This document shows, in pieces, positions 27,426-47,822 of a stretch of 64,000 nt of DNA. A program made the position numbers and the translations under genes. The notes under the pieces were generated by a model that saw only the letters and a list, made by a program, of their open reading frames with translations, was not told the DNA's origin and searched no databases. Position 1 is the stretch's first letter. Every line of letters starts with the position of its first letter. Source of the stretch: Bacillus sp. Cs-700 (GTDB taxonomy: Bacteria; Bacillota; Bacilli; Bacillales; Guptibacillaceae); contig NZ_CP041063.1 of assembly GCF_011082085.1 (NCBI RefSeq), forward strand, positions 248,001-312,000, in the 5' to 3' direction.

Positions 27426-27433
27426 TGATTCAG

Positions 27434-27459
27434 AAAAGCGGGATATTTCCCGCTTTTTT
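27434..27459 (+). terminator. terminator after rpsO
   Basis: AAAGCGGG pairs with CCCGCTTT around a short AT loop, followed by a T run, 9 bp after the rpsO stop. Confidence 0.88.
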
Positions 27460-27492
27460 ATTAGGTTAAAAATACATAGATTTCTTCCTTTC

Positions 27493-27522
27493 TTTTTAGA
27501 AGTAAAAAGGTTAGGGTATAAT
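27493..27522 (+). promoter_or_regulatory. probable SigA promoter of pnp
   Basis: A perfect -10 TATAAT (27517-27522) with a poor T-rich -35 at the right distance, about 42 bp upstream of the pnp start. Confidence 0.55.
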
Positions 27523-27563
27523 AAAAGAAATGATTTTATTGGATGAGAGGAGTTCTCACATTA

Positions 27564-29681
27564 ATGGCACAAGAGAAGCAAGTGTTTTCAATTGATTGGG
27601 CTGGTCGCGAATTGTCAGTTGAGATTGGTCAGCTGGCGAAGCAGGCGAGCGGTGCAGCATTGATTCGCTACGGCGATACAGCTGTACTAGCAACGGTGAC
27701 AGGTTCTAAGGAGCCGAAAGACCTTCCGTTTTTCCCACTAACGGTTAATTATGAAGAACGATTATATGCAGTAGGTAAAATTCCTGGAGGCTTCATAAAG
27801 CGTGAAGGCCGTCCAAGTGAAAAGGCAATTCTTGCGAGTCGTTTAATTGACCGCCCGATTCGTCCTTTATTCCCAGATGGTTTCCGTAATGAAGTTCAAG
27901 TAGTGAGCACAGTTATGAGCGTGGATCAGAACTGTTCTTCCGAGATGGCAGCAATGTTCGGTTCATCTCTAGCACTTGGAATTAGTGATCTTCCATTTGA
28001 TGGTCCGATTGCGGGTGTGCTCGTTGGACGCATCGACGGTCAGTTCGTCGTAAATCCTAATGTTGATCAGCTTGAACAAAGTGACATTCATTTAACAGTT
28101 GCAGGTACGAAAGATGCAATCAATATGGTTGAAGCTGGCGCTGAAGAAGTACCAGAAGAAACGATGCTAGAAGGTATTCTATTCGGACATCAGGAAATCA
28201 AGCGTCTGATTTCTTTCCAGGAACAAATCATCGAAGCTGTAGGAAAAGAAAAACGTGAAGTCGTTCTGAAAAAAGCAGACGAAACGCTTGAAGCTAAGCT
28301 TAGTGAGGAATACCTTGCTGATATTCAAGAAGCTGTCAAAGTGATTGAAAAGCATGCAAGACAAGAAGCGATCGATGCTGTCATGACGCGTGCAACAGAA
28401 GCTTATGAAGAAAGCGAAGAATATAGCGCTGAAGAAGTGAAATCAATCTTGAATAGCTTTGTGAAGCAAGAAGTACGTCGCTTAATTTTGAAGGATAAAG
28501 TAAGACCAGACGGACGTGGCGTTGATGAAATTCGCCCGCTTGATTCCGAAGTCGGTATCCTTTCAAGAACACACGGCTCAGGCTTGTTCACTCGTGGACA
28601 AACTCAAGCGCTTAGTATTTGTACACTTGGTGCACTCGGAGACGTTCAAATTCTTGACGGTCTTGGGACAGAAGAATCGAAGCGATTCATGCACCACTAT
28701 AACTTCCCTAAATTCAGCGTTGGCGAAACCGGCCCAATGCGTGGACCAGGTCGTCGTGAGATTGGTCACGGTGCTCTCGGTGAGCGTGCTCTTGAGCAAG
28801 TGATCCCAACAGAAAAAGATTTCCCTTATACAATTCGTCTTGTATCTGAAGTGCTTGAATCAAACGGCTCAACTTCACAGGCAAGCATCTGTGCAAGTAC
28901 GCTTGCGATGATGGATGCTGGTGTCCCAATTAAAGCACCAGTTGCTGGTATTGCAATGGGACTTGTTAGTGATGGAGAAGACGTAACAGTACTTACAGAC
29001 ATCCAGGGCATGGAAGATGCACTTGGTGACATGGACTTTAAAGTTGCTGGAACAGAGCAAGGTGTAACGGCGCTTCAAATGGATATCAAAATTTCAGGAA
29101 TCAATGAAGACATCCTTCGTCAAGCGCTTGAACAGGCTAAGAAAGGTCGTCTTGCCATTCTTGAAAACATGATGAGTGCAATCAACGAACCTCGTACAGA
29201 GCTTTCTGCGTACGCACCGAAGATCTTGACAATGTCAATTAAACCAGATAAGATCCGCGACGTAATTGGACCAAGCGGTAAAATCATCAATAAAATCATT
29301 GAAGAAACTGGCGTAAAAATTGATATTGAGCAGGACGGTTCAATCTTTATTTCTTCTACTGAGCAAGAGATGAACGCAAAAGCGAAGAAGATCATCGAAG
29401 ATCTTGTGAGAGAAGTTGAAGTTGGCACAACTTACCTTGGTAAAGTAAAACGAGTAGAGAAATTTGGCGCATTCGTTGAGCTATTTGCTGGGAAAGAAGG
29501 CCTTGTTCATATTTCTGAACTTGCTGAAGAACGTACAAACAAAGTAGAAGATGTTGTCTCGATCGGTGATGAAATTATGGTTAAAGTAAAAGAAATCGAT
29601 AAGCAGGGACGCGTCAACTTATCACGCAAAGAGATCTTAAAAGAACAGCGTGAACGTGAAGAACAAAGTCAAAAGAGTTAA
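27564..29681 (+). CDS. pnp: polyribonucleotide nucleotidyltransferase (PNPase)
   Basis: A 705-aa 3'-5' phosphorolytic exoribonuclease of the RNA degradation machinery. Two RNase PH domains are visible (first with [19 protein letters not shown], second with [14 protein letters not shown] and [12 protein letters not shown]), then a KH domain ([18 protein letters not shown]) and a C-terminal S1 domain ([18 protein letters not shown]). ATG 27564 gives [16 protein letters not shown], in line with homologues; the ATG at 27543 is upstream of the GAGAGGAG site. RNase Y, its functional partner, is also in this window. Confidence 0.97.
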
Positions 29682-44041: not shown

Positions 44042-45096
44042 AGTTATTAAAAGGGAAATGGGCGAGCATTACTGTACCGTTGCTTTCGGTAGCTCTTGGA
44101 TTACTCGTCGGTGGGATCATCATGCTTGTGAGTGGCTACAATCCCATTGTAGCGTATGCAGCGCTGTTTAACGGGATTTTCTCAAACACGTACGTGTTAG
44201 GTGAAACAGTTCGGCAGATGACTCCGCTCATTTTGTCGGGGTTAGCCGTGGCTTTTGCTTTTCGTACAGGGCTTTTTAATATTGGAGTAGAAGGGCAGCT
44301 GCTTGTCGGCTGGCTAGCATCTGTTTATATCGGGCTTCAATTTGAAGGGTTAAGTCCTGTAGTTCATATTCCTCTTGCAATTATTGCAGCAGCAATGGCT
44401 GGAGCGATTTGGGCCTTTGTACCTGGATTCTTGAAAGCAAAGTATCAAGTTCATGAGGTTATTACAACGATTATGATGAACTACGTTGCGCTTCATGTCG
44501 TTAACGCGATAATTCGGACGTATTTACTCGCTCCTGGTGAGCGAACGGATCAAATTAATGCTTCAGCATCGCTTCAATCGCCGTTCTTAGAAACGATTAC
44601 TGATTTCTCACGTCTTCACTACGGTTTTGTTGTGGCGATTATTGGAGCGATTATTATGTGGTTCCTTCTATGGAAAACGACGACAGGGTATGAACTACGC
44701 TCGGTTGGATTTAACAAATATGCGTCAGAATATGCTGGAATCAATGTGCAACGAAACATCGTTCTTTCTATGGTCATTTCGGGTGCATTTGCTGGAGCAG
44801 CAGGAGCGATGGAAGGGCTTGGAACGTACGGTTATATGACCGTTATGGCTGACTTTACTGGCGTTGGATTTGACGGAATCGCAGTTGCGCTTTTAGGTGC
44901 AAATGGGGCGCTTGGTGTTGTCCTTGCTTCTGCACTGTTTGGTGGGCTTAAAATTGGTGCGCTTAATATGCAGTCAGTTGCACAGGTGCCAACACAGCTT
45001 GTTGAAATCGTGATTGCCATGATTATTTTCTTTGTCGCATCCAGTTACTTGATTCACTGGATCAGCAACAGGGTGAGCAAAAGGGGGAAAATTTAA
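44038..45096 (+). CDS. nucleoside ABC transporter permease 1
   Basis: A 352-aa polytopic protein of the BPD_transp_2 (Bmp/branched-chain/ribose-type) permease family. It has many hydrophobic segments, the LFNIGVEGQLLVG motif near residue 80, and the cytoplasmic coupling segment YELRSVGFNKYASEYAGINV. It is translated from an ATGA overlap with the ATPase gene and shares one base with the second permease gene. Confidence 0.93.
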   Translation: MKLLKGKWASITVPLLSVALGLLVGGIIMLVSGYNPIVAYAALFNGIFSNTYVLGETVRQMTPLILSGLAVAFAFRTGLFNIGVEGQLLVGWLASVYIGLQFEGLSPVVHIPLAIIAAAMAGAIWAFVPGFLKAKYQVHEVITTIMMNYVALHVVNAIIRTYLLAPGERTDQINASASLQSPFLETITDFSRLHYGFVVAIIGAIIMWFLLWKTTTGYELRSVGFNKYASEYAGINVQRNIVLSMVISGAFAGAAGAMEGLGTYGYMTVMADFTGVGFDGIAVALLGANGALGVVLASALFGGLKIGALNMQSVAQVPTQLVEIVIAMIIFFVASSYLIHWISNRVSKRGKI

Positions 45097-46058
45097 TGGA
45101 TTTCATGCAGATTCTTCAGCTCATTATTCCTGCCGCTATCTTTTCAGCAGCTCCCCTGATTTTCACGGCTCTTGGAGGAGTATTCAGTGAAAGGTCAGGC
45201 GTAGTAAACATTGGACTTGAAGGGTTAATGTTAATGGGTGCTTTCACTGGCGCGCTGTTTACAATCCTTGGCGAGCAGTGGGGAATGGGGGCCGCTTCTC
45301 CCTGGTTTTCACTAGTCGTTGCGATCATTATAGGCATGCTGTTCTCTTTGCTTCATGCAGTGGCAAGTATTTCGTTTCGAGCCGATCAGGTTGTTAGTGG
45401 TGTGGCCCTTAACTTCCTTGCGGCTGGACTTGCTATCTTCCTTGTGAAGAAAATCTTTGATGCAGGGCAAACGCCGATTATTCAAGAACGTATTTACAAA
45501 ACGGATGTTCCATTTTTAAGCGATATCCCGTTTATTGGACCTTTGTTTTTTTCAAGCGCGTATTATACATCCTACATTGCGGTTGCGCTCGCCTTCCTCG
45601 TATGGTGGGTTCTCTATAAAACCCCATTCGGCTTACGACTCCGTTCAGTAGGAGAGCATCCTATGGCGGCAGATACGATGGGGATTAATGTGACGAAAAT
45701 GCGCTATGTAGCGGTTATGCTAAGTGGTGGATTTGCCGGTCTCGGGGGTGCGGTTTACGCGACGTCGATCGCAGGGAACTTCAGCCATGCAACGATTTCT
45801 GGACAGGGCTTTATGGCACTAGCCGCGATGATCTTTGGTAAATGGCATCCGCTTGGTGCGATGGGAGCAGCGTTATTCTTTGGTCTTGCTCAATCGCTAA
45901 GTATAACTGGCCAACAGATTCCGGGATTAAAAGAAATTCCAGAAGTTTATCTTCTTATTTCCCCTTACGTGTTAACGATTCTTGCTCTTGCAGGACTTGT
46001 TGGACGAGCGGATGCGCCAAAAGCCATTGGTCAGCCGTATGAAAAAGGGAAGCGATAA
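45096..46058 (+). CDS. nucleoside ABC transporter permease 2
   Basis: A 320-aa partner permease of the same family, with VVNIGLEGLMLMGAFTGAL near the N-terminus and GLRLRSVGEHPMAADTMGINV as the coupling segment. Its start codon overlaps the stop of permease 1 (TAATG). It completes a binding protein-ATPase-permease-permease set. Unlike the layout I recall in related genomes, no GntR regulator gene lies between spoIIIE and this operon. Confidence 0.93.
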   Translation: MDFMQILQLIIPAAIFSAAPLIFTALGGVFSERSGVVNIGLEGLMLMGAFTGALFTILGEQWGMGAASPWFSLVVAIIIGMLFSLLHAVASISFRADQVVSGVALNFLAAGLAIFLVKKIFDAGQTPIIQERIYKTDVPFLSDIPFIGPLFFSSAYYTSYIAVALAFLVWWVLYKTPFGLRLRSVGEHPMAADTMGINVTKMRYVAVMLSGGFAGLGGAVYATSIAGNFSHATISGQGFMALAAMIFGKWHPLGAMGAALFFGLAQSLSITGQQIPGLKEIPEVYLLISPYVLTILALAGLVGRADAPKAIGQPYEKGKR

Positions 46059-46098: not shown

Positions 46099-46134
46099 GT
46101 TTTGACAATAGGAAAGACGGTAACGCTCTAAAAA

Positions 46135-46194
46135 AGCGTGTTCTAGTTCAAGAGCTCCAATATCTCCGTTTCTAAACGCTCGTCTCCGCTTTTC
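46135..46194 (+). repeat. degenerate right half of the 120-bp repeat
   Basis: It aligns with the right halves of the two complete units that follow: GCGTGTTC, then AGAGCTCCA and a final TCCGCTTTTC. The left half and its pairing partners are not recognisable, so it looks like a decayed copy. Confidence 0.6.
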
Positions 46195-46314
46195 ATGATC
46201 CAGCTGCAGTGGGCAGACACTCAGTCACTTCGCCCTATAACTCGAACACAAAGGGCGTGTTCAATTTATAGGGCTCCAGTGCCTACCGTGTCTAACCGCC
46301 CACTTCCGCTTTTC
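46195..46314 (+). repeat. structured palindromic repeat, copy 1 (120 bp)
   Basis: Nested inverted repeats from outside to inside: AGTGGGC/GCCCACT (46208 and 46298), AGACAC/GTGTCT (46215 and 46288), GCCCTATAA/TTATAGGGC (46232 and 46266) and GAACAC/GTGTTC (46244 and 46257) around a 7-nt loop. The unit ends in TTCCGCTTTTC. It is non-coding: the open frame across it is only a by-product of the repeat. Confidence 0.85.
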
Positions 46315-46435
46315 ATTGATCTAGCTGCAGTGGGCAGGGTCTCGATCGCTTCAGCATTTCAAGTGAACACAAAGACCGTGTTCTTTTGAAATGCCTCCAG
46401 CGCTTGTCGACCCTAAACGCCCACTTTCGCTTTTC
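46315..46435 (+). repeat. structured palindromic repeat, copy 2 (121 bp)
   Basis: It has the same architecture as copy 1 at the same spacing. AGTGGGC/GCCCACT (46329 and 46419) and GAACAC/GTGTTC (46365 and 46378) are identical, but the two other helices differ and remain complementary: AGGGTC/GACCCT (46336 and 46409) and GCATTTCAA/TTGAAATGC (46354 and 46386). It ends TTTCGCTTTTC. Confidence 0.85.
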
Positions 46436-46455
46436 TTTTAAAAAGTACTAATTGC

Positions 46456-46544: not shown

Positions 46545-47822
46545 ATGGCGATTATCCCTCATGAGAAAACCTCGTGCGGCGGTTTGACGCTACATAGGAT
46601 CCAGACGGATAAATATAAAACAACGACGGTAGTGGTTCAATTTAAAGCGCGTTTGACGAAGGAGACCGTGACGGAGAGGGCTCTTTTGCCTTATGTGTTG
46701 CAAAGCGGTACGGAAAACTATTCTTCTTCGAAAGCGGTTCGTACGGAGCTTGAGAAGCTCTATGGGGCGACGCTTGGTGTGGATCTTGCCAAGAAGGGTG
46801 ATTTTCATGTGATGACGTTCCGGATGGACTTCGCGAATGAAAAGTTCCTTTCTGAAGATGAGCCTTTGTTTAAGAAAGCCCTTTCTTTACTTTCAGAGGT
46901 GATCATGAATCCGAAGACGGATGGATCTGGCTTCGATTCTTCAATTGTTGATAAAGAAAAGCGGACGATGAAACAGCGTATTCAATCGATTTATGATGAT
47001 AAAATGCGCTATTCAAACATGAGACTAACGCAAGAAATGTTTCCGAATGAGGCTTTTGGATTGCATATTTACGGAGAAAAAGAAGAAGTGGATGGCGTGA
47101 CAGCGAAGTCTCTTTATGATTACTATAAAAAAGTTTGTGCAGAAGATGAGATTGATCTTTATTTAGTTGGTGACTTAGAAGGCGTTAATGCTGAAGAAGT
47201 TGTAAAAGAGCTTTTCCCGTTTCAAGAACGTAGTGATCGAAAGTCTGAAACAACTGAAAAAGCCTCTCTTGATGTGGAAGAAAAAGAGGTCCTTGAAACA
47301 CAGGAAATCAAGCAAGGAAAGCTTCATATGGGCTTTCGCTCTGGGGTTGGCTATGCGGATGATGAATACTTCGCCCTTCAAGTATTTAATGGCATGTTTG
47401 GAGGCTTCTCACACTCCAAGCTTTTTCGAAACGTACGAGAAAAAGAGAGCCTTGCTTATTACGCCGCGTCCCGCTATGAAAGCCATAAAGGCTTAATTAT
47501 TGTGATGTCTGGCATTGAGTTTAAAAACTTTAAAAAGACTGTTGATATTATTAAAGAGCAGCTTACGGCTATGAGAGAAGGCGACTTCAACGAGGAAGAA
47601 ATGAAGCAAACAAAAACCATGATTCGCAATCAGCTTCTTGAGACGGTCGATGACGCAAAAGGAATGGTTGAGCTGCTCTATCACGGTGTTGTCTCTCAAA
47701 AGCTACGGACAATTGAAGAGTGGCTTGATGGTGTGGAAGCTGTGACAAAAGAAGATATTTTAGCGGTTGCGGATAAGGTTAAGCTTGATACCGTTTATTT
47801 CTTAAAAGGCGAGGAGGCTTAA
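46545..47822 (+). CDS. ymfF: M16-family protein YmfF, zinc motif missing
   Basis: A 425-aa M16 (pitrilysin-like) protein without the HxxEH motif: the matching region reads ALLPYVLQSGTENYSSSKAV. The second half retains KLHMGFRSGVGYADDEYFALQVFNGMFGGFSHSKLF, split over the family pattern, and RNVREKESLAYYAAS. It is probably the non-catalytic partner of YmfH, as AlbE/AlbF-type and plant/mitochondrial M16 pairs work. ATG 46545 follows AAGGAG; the in-frame ATG at 46509 has no ribosome site. ymfH begins 2 bp after its stop. Confidence 0.9.
   Translation: MAIIPHEKTSCGGLTLHRIQTDKYKTTTVVVQFKARLTKETVTERALLPYVLQSGTENYSSSKAVRTELEKLYGATLGVDLAKKGDFHVMTFRMDFANEKFLSEDEPLFKKALSLLSEVIMNPKTDGSGFDSSIVDKEKRTMKQRIQSIYDDKMRYSNMRLTQEMFPNEAFGLHIYGEKEEVDGVTAKSLYDYYKKVCAEDEIDLYLVGDLEGVNAEEVVKELFPFQERSDRKSETTEKASLDVEEKEVLETQEIKQGKLHMGFRSGVGYADDEYFALQVFNGMFGGFSHSKLFRNVREKESLAYYAASRYESHKGLIIVMSGIEFKNFKKTVDIIKEQLTAMREGDFNEEEMKQTKTMIRNQLLETVDDAKGMVELLYHGVVSQKLRTIEEWLDGVEAVTKEDILAVADKVKLDTVYFLKGEEA

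Follow-up and report, generated by a model that had tools for sequence, protein, structure and literature searches.

A probably REP/BIME-like, order-specific repeat family with covarying hairpin units and arrays that often start at stop codons or 23S rRNA 3′ ends

Downregulation of translation is reported for REPs fewer than 16 nt away from a stop codon, a zone to which an earlier study assigned 260 of 496 REPs; of 4,072 REPs predicted in E. coli, 446 are within 15 nt of one (PMC12306157). As only the latter fraction lies so close, the REP parallel drawn below is partial. The bcr1–bcr18 repeats of the Bacillus cereus group are described as intergenic and in some cases structured, about half of them occurring in transcripts as UTR or operon spacer (PMC3446304). 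Bhal-1 of Bacillus halodurans is reported as a 74-nt intergenic stem-loop repeat with 36 copies and a conserved structure (PMC2267715). Bacillus tandem repeats of 52 nt and 20–21 nt are reported to be constant in size, variable in sequence and species-specific, with short conserved signals (PMC8161180).

The array analysed here lies in a window (the whole stretch of DNA under study, 64,000 nt) of Bacillus sp. Cs-700, whose genome (G000) belongs to the genus Pseudalkalibacillus. At a probability of roughly one half, we read its family as an order-specific, chromosomal, non-coding repeat of the REP/BIME kind, with turnover through DNA recombination and a constraint on the folding of one strand.

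The array upstream of the ymfF-like gene

The tandem plan given in the original prediction, with units of about 120 bp and a decayed half upstream, was recovered by sequence comparison as two 121-nt units, 73% identical to each other, plus a truncated third unit, which by eye was of the CTCTTGA/TGAAAGA type (Table 1). TRF placed the array at 46185-46435 (score 274). The helices quoted in the prediction were present letter for letter in both units: AGTGGGC/GCCCACT and GAACAC/GTGTTC were common to the two, and between them AGACAC/GTGTCT was replaced by AGGGTC/GACCCT and GCCCTATAA/TTATAGGGC by GCATTTCAA/TTGAAATGC. These changes are real, but the two units are different types, both of which recur at other sites, so their differences need not be local in origin.

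The array was antisense to both neighbouring genes, which we read as nupQ-like and ymfF-like, and what we take to be the terminator of the nupQ-like gene is located between that gene and the array. The predicted position upstream of ymfF held with a corrected distance, as the array ends about 105–110 nt before a start taken at 46545 (the open reading frame list has a longer frame from 46509). One promoter-like site was present on the folding strand at the array (46640-46612) against a shuffle mean of 0.7, that is, no excess. Elsewhere in the window, Rfam matched the Listeria sRNA rliD at 27431-27744 on the minus strand (57 bits against a gathering score of 50).

In DNA folding, both window units beat 200 of 200 dinucleotide shuffles on either strand, with z values of −4.4 and −5.0 on the plus strand and −7.8 and −5.8 on the minus strand. 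The strand described in the prediction was, however, the weaker one. Across 220 genus units, the modelled strand had the lower minimum energy in 214, with RNA parameters (−49.7 against −40.3 for the complement) and DNA parameters (−26.0 against −21.3) alike, which places the constraint on the reverse complement of the strand first described; this energy difference alone does not discriminate RNA from single-stranded DNA. On the folding strand, a unit of about 119–122 nt forms a long hairpin with purine-rich internal loops, in which helix sequence is free and complementarity is kept. Its unpaired positions included conserved purine-rich stretches in A1, an alignment of 46 units from one genome, and the loop positions were conserved in the genus alignment and in the displayed distant matches.

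Table 1. Features of the array and its neighbours in window coordinates; unit A and B boundaries are covariance-model matches converted from genome coordinates.
Feature	Position	Strand	Details
Unit B	46312..46439	-	First unit on the folding strand; covariance-model match 139.3 bits, E 5.0e-34; compound hairpin with outer AGTGGGC/GCCCACT, H2 GGT/ACC, inner GCATTTCAA/TTGAAATGC (+ strand letters), apical GAACAC/GTGTTC
Unit A	46191..46318	-	Second unit on the folding strand; covariance-model match 139.1 bits, E 5.6e-34; plan of unit B with H2 ACA/TGT and inner helix GCCCTATAA/TTATAGGGC (+ strand letters)
Truncated third unit	~46118..46194	-	Array tail, 3′ part lost; 31-nt family D2 match; nhmmer cluster start 46118
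5′ box GAAAAG of unit B	46430..46435	-	CTTTTC on +; followed by conserved GCG on the folding strand
5′ box GAAAAG of unit A	46309..46314	-	
5′ box GAAAAG of truncated unit	46189..46194	-	
Outer helix arm AGTGGGC of unit A	46208..46214	-	+ strand letters; partner GCCCACT at 46298-46304
ymfF-like gene	46545..47822	+	M16 peptidase; downstream neighbour
nupQ-like gene	45096..46058	+	Branched-chain/nucleoside-type ABC permease; upstream neighbour

Family range and helix covariation

A BLAST search found 61 matches in the genome that contains the window. Hits of at least 95 nt were retained, and 59 units were aligned. A covariance model was built on the minus strand from 46 units (of 47 proposed sequences). 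At least 101 model matches were found in G000, a lower bound with 150 of 1733 candidates scored, and they formed 37 clusters of 1–6 matches; all 28 clusters with several matches ran in one direction. Of the 10 clusters below 2.15 Mb, 7 had the folding strand on plus, and of the 27 above it, 20 had it on minus. A diverged, weak relative of the element was also seen at about 2454812 of G000 (E 1.3e-5; position 69812 of the joined 2385001-2465000 stretch), and its flanks exist in G007 as well.

With a cut-off of E ≤ 0.001, the element was detected in 51 of 61 genomes (60 relatives and G000), representing 38 of the 48 genera sampled, and at least 20 of the 48 genera had ten or more matches; these counts are again lower bounds, as at most 56 candidates were scored per genome. 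The element is therefore not unique to the window, and the likeness to palindromes of other Bacillaceae that the prediction had mentioned holds at the level of the order. In a draw of 299 genomes from the phylum, the three with a match all came from the window's order, and the only other member of that order listed in the draw (G056) gave none. On this sampling, the family is order-specific. Phage and plasmid records gave no match to a query of the window's own type, with which distant relatives could be missed. A pattern scan with 17 specified bases returned unrelated genomes too among the matches listed, and these are taken as chance. The family has no Rfam match: nothing reached the gathering score at the window array, where a permissive setting gave two chance-level matches far below the cut-off, and at 18 further loci no Rfam match lay over an element match, save 1 nt of 23S rRNA in L070. 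No paper in the open-licence literature searched was recognised as describing this family.

The paired change seen between the two window units extended to many copies; neither outcome that the prediction named as refuting, a unique element or other copies without paired change, was observed. In A1, both sides had changed in 19 of 34 pairs of the RNAalifold structure and the covariation score was 0.461, against 0.057–0.102 for slid versions; addition of two helix 3 pairs gave 20 of 36 pairs and 0.463 against 0.054–0.098. Because the structure was derived from A1 itself, it is somewhat favoured over its slid versions in this comparison. In A4, where 61 units from three distant genera were aligned by fitting to the model, both-sided change occurred in 32 of 34 pairs with a score of 0.733 against 0.105–0.172. 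Covariation thus exceeded both slid and shuffled controls.

Recent change was followed in 220 distinct rows, which remained from 322 aligned genus hits after removal of duplicates and of rows with more than 10 gaps. Nearest neighbours with 1–8 differences (126 pairs) showed 48 both-sided changes, and 44 of these were Watson-Crick before and after (30 transitional, 14 transversional), against 0–3 in slid versions. They included flips of A-T into T-A, and of A-T into C-G, in copies that were otherwise near-identical. Double changes were mostly isolated pairs, with 55 of 63 runs of length 1 at a distance of up to 14. One-sided changes in the 126 pairs, leaving out 45/87 and 55/77, amounted to 64 mismatches, 40 G-U and 23 A-C (G-U against A-C, p 0.043). 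Neighbours at 1–4 differences, with all pairs counted, gave 31 G-U against 8 A-C, and the distant genera gave 23 G-U against 6 A-C cells when the two G-U-rich columns were left out; outside those columns and pair 59/96, G-U was rare there. On the folding strand, then, pairs are maintained with a mild preference for G-U, yet mismatches occur as often as G-U.

The 220 units contained 16 outer, 14 middle and 33 inner helix variants that were fully Watson-Crick, in 31–44 pairwise combinations, so the helices partly behave as exchangeable modules. Pairing was not strict, since the outer helix had at least two broken pairs in 28 of 220 units, some visibly chimeric, and the inner helix at least two non-standard pairs in 74 of 220, mainly members of a single unit type that has A-G and G-A pairs.

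Array starts and turnover at shared sites

A rule for where arrays start, absent from the original prediction, emerged in G000. In 15 of its 37 clusters, the array starts at a stop codon that closes a codirectional frame of 87 codons or more and lies at −3 to +7 of the model start. The rule admitted any frame of 80 codons or longer whose end fell within −12 to +8; the mechanical count was 16, and cluster 1294493 (90 codons) was dropped for a longer ORF nearby on the opposite strand. ORF lengths are from stop to stop, and three of the 15 give only 58–64 aa from the first Met. The array-start search looked for sense ORFs, and in a control at the opposite array end an antisense ORF of that size ending within −12 to +8 was found in 0 of 37 clusters. 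Genes before these starts presumably include atpG, gnd, zwf, gntK and amtB, as read from their sequences, and Pfam supported ctaG, acyl-CoA dehydrogenase, thioesterase, Mn-catalase-like and Crp-like genes. In G023, G040 and G037, a stop codon stood at 14 of 42 starts, all at −2 to +2; these regions were picked from the best-scoring matches, not at random, and the denominator still contains nine of the 42 that, by eye, come after a unit that went undetected and so do not truly begin an array. At −2 to +5 of starts, stop trinucleotides are common, as must follow from the starts at stop codons. A pure A-tract target, hinted at by eye at the empty gnd and ymfF sites, was not established, base counts covering six positions only.

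Another 4 of the 37 clusters start at the 3′ end of 23S rRNA, and starts of both kinds recur in other genera. The element lay directly behind the Rfam 23S match in L053 (G057), after a 1-nt gap in L099 (G000) and in L049 and L058 (G047), and it overlapped the match by 1 nt in L070 (G060). The search of 81 loci included L099 alone of the four 23S-adjacent ones. The remaining 18 of 37 clusters start at neither a stop codon nor a 23S end, and some of them are antisense to both neighbours. tRNA genes were sought at array starts of 17 loci, and only L098 had any, neither adjoining the array. In G057, copies stood behind 23S rRNA at three loci (L043, L053 and L062), of which two are at contig starts, and this points to rRNA operons as a main home of the element there. 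By eye, a Bacillaceae-1 RNA (RF01690, 71 bits; L044 1746-1811, plus strand) stood directly behind an array of G023.

The sites themselves were partly shared among species. Inspection by eye of 14 genus genomes found the element upstream of ymfF in 12 (in one as a half unit; the other 2 lack it there), downstream of atpG in 7 and downstream of gnd in 4; unoccupied orthologous loci had spacers or terminators without the element, too diverged for an insertion junction or a target duplication to be defined. Over a 150-kb block in G000, G007, G009 and G011, whose flanks are 85–98% identical, all eight G000 sites were filled in all four genomes, and there was one extra nhmmer cluster, a 48-nt fragment in G007 (E 0.0003). 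Each site held 1 to 7 nhmmer hits, some of them fragments, and unit number varied by genome.

Units at a given site also differed in type. At the zwf site, the box GTAAAG was present in all units displayed and in the tail, in four species, though the unit types differ; 5′ boxes were less uniform at other sites, such as behind atpG. Site-specific boxes hint at insertion rather than plain conversion and resemble target duplication, with no clean empty site among those examined. Array tails were truncated units whose arm varied among species, and the host DNA beyond was conserved. Among 95 units from nine sites, counted after duplicate removal and so not all units there, 46 were matched in another species by a unit at that site with at least 95% identity. 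The closest relative was located at a different site in about 49 cases and within the unit's own array in about 15. Five near-identical tandem units behind an ammonium-transporter-like gene (L115, G000 4242190-4242912) are apparently a recent local amplification.

Proposed mechanism, rival readings and known systems

Under the reading as a recombining repeat with a one-strand folding constraint, unequal crossing over and ectopic conversion would copy units within and between sites. Complementarity would survive either because a host factor recognises the folded strand or because the arms are mutually corrected via template switching. At sites with the folding strand in sense, the hairpin would border the terminating ribosome or the 23S end and would probably influence the 3′ end of the transcript, an effect reported for REPs near stop codons in E. 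coli. The exact start position might reflect loss of dispensable host DNA up to a functional boundary or a target preference; either fits.

The original prediction had offered selection for structure or a copying mechanism that rewrites both arms. The paired change stood, and the two alternatives were not separated, as pairing intactness was 0.929 in stop-codon arrays (43 units) and 0.925 in antisense arrays (34 units; p 0.84). This equality argues against selection on each site's mRNA alone, although exchange between sites could mask site-specific mRNA selection. It bears on a tentative, rather unlikely alternative, in which the folding strand is a selected 3′-UTR or inter-cistronic hairpin that protects mRNA 3′ ends or slows ribosomes at the stop codon, with antisense arrays as free small RNAs or reservoirs. 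Such a role would agree with the sense orientation at the 15 and 14 stop-codon starts against 0 of 37 in the antisense control, and with the folding strand following 23S rRNA in four genomes (G000, G057, G047 and G060). Compensated single pairs between near-identical units and the excess of G-U over A-C in three counts (40:23, 31:8, 23:6) point the same way, as does the downregulation of translation reported for REPs that lie closer than 16 nt to a stop codon (PMC12306157). The intact pairing of antisense arrays speaks against it, together with the rarity of G-U once pair 59/96 and the two G-U-rich columns are set aside, the larger number of recent one-arm mismatches (64) than of G-U (40), and the single promoter-like site on the window's folding strand against a shuffle mean of 0.7. 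Moreover, a role at the mRNA level alone leaves out arrays that, like the window's own, are antisense to both neighbours. Template switching during replication (quasi-palindrome correction), a reported source of compensatory change in the part of PMC8794818 used here, might instead rewrite the arms of inert repeats and leave covariation as a mutational signature. The compensated A-T to T-A and A-T to C-G flips in near-identical copies and the equal pairing whatever the gene orientation are consistent with this, but rewriting would be expected in patches, while 55 of 63 double-change runs are single pairs, and the conserved unpaired loops point to recognition; we regard it as improbable.

Mobilisation of a REPIN-like system by a RAYT (TnpA_REP, a Y1 HUH transposase) would account for hairpin repeats in many copies. 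All 14 genus genomes had at least two Y1_Tnp matches, several in open frames of RAYT size that we read as RAYT-like. In G027 and G057, with 29 and 17 element matches respectively, no Y1_Tnp match reached 1e-5, and G019 and G028 had Y1_Tnp matches without an element match. The 10-kb stretches around both RAYT-like genes of G000 contained no element match; by eye, other short palindromes flank these genes. We therefore disfavour this explanation as very unlikely. The two genes (L119, 2370351-2370680, and L120, 2187698-2188030, both on the minus strand) have the upstream palindromes GGTCAGGCTCGAGCCTGACC and GGTGCCTGTCACC (by eye), perhaps another repeat system. The attC sites of integrons act as a folded strand, with free helix sequence and a position behind a stop codon, and exchange of attC-like cassettes by a putative site-specific recombinase acting on one strand would fit the conservation of structure rather than sequence, the better folding of one strand, the array starts at stop codons and the recurrence of unit types at different sites with site-specific boxes. 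As no R′/R″ core sites were seen by eye and no genes lie between the units of an array, we give it equally little credence. A broader conjecture, in which gene and 23S ends are fixed docking stations for interchangeable folded cassettes read by a putative dedicated system through the folded strand and the box, order-wide and integron-like though gene-less, is doubtful at best. With RAYT disfavoured and pairing equal in antisense arrays, recombination plus a one-strand folding constraint is favoured, with a 3′-end effect where the array is sense.

Whether covariation stems from selection or from templated copying is an open question for RNA evolution, and natural copies with compensated single pairs at shared sister-species sites offer a direct test of the two. 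Motif finders should note that strong covariation is possible in a repeat of mixed gene orientation. If the 3′-end role were true, housekeeping transcripts (read as atpG, gnd, zwf, amtB and rRNA) would share a fast-changing structural element.

Compared with described repeats, the period of 119–122 nt differs from the 52 or 20–21 nt of the Bacillus tandem repeats, which are presented without covariation analysis in the part of the source used here (PMC8161180). The bcr repeats, compared by description, were reported for B. cereus strains, without mention of array turnover or stop-codon starts in the part of the source used here (PMC3446304). Bhal-1, also compared by description only, might be a piece of the same superfamily. 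Integrons differ by core sites, an integrase and gene cassettes, which were not seen in this family (cores by eye), the recombinase search having been for Y1_Tnp. With REP/BIME elements the family shares many intergenic imperfect-palindrome copies in one genome (here at least 101 in 37 clusters), part of them near gene 3′ ends (here 15 of 37 at a stop codon and 4 of 37 at 23S). It differs from them and from REPINs in its covarying multi-helix units of about 120 nt, one-way clusters, starts within a few nt of the stop codon and site-specific box, and in that no RAYT link was found for it. The nearest known kind is REP/BIME, and the compound covarying hairpin, the one-way arrays, the starts at functional ends, the site-specific box and the lack of a RAYT link here set this family apart.
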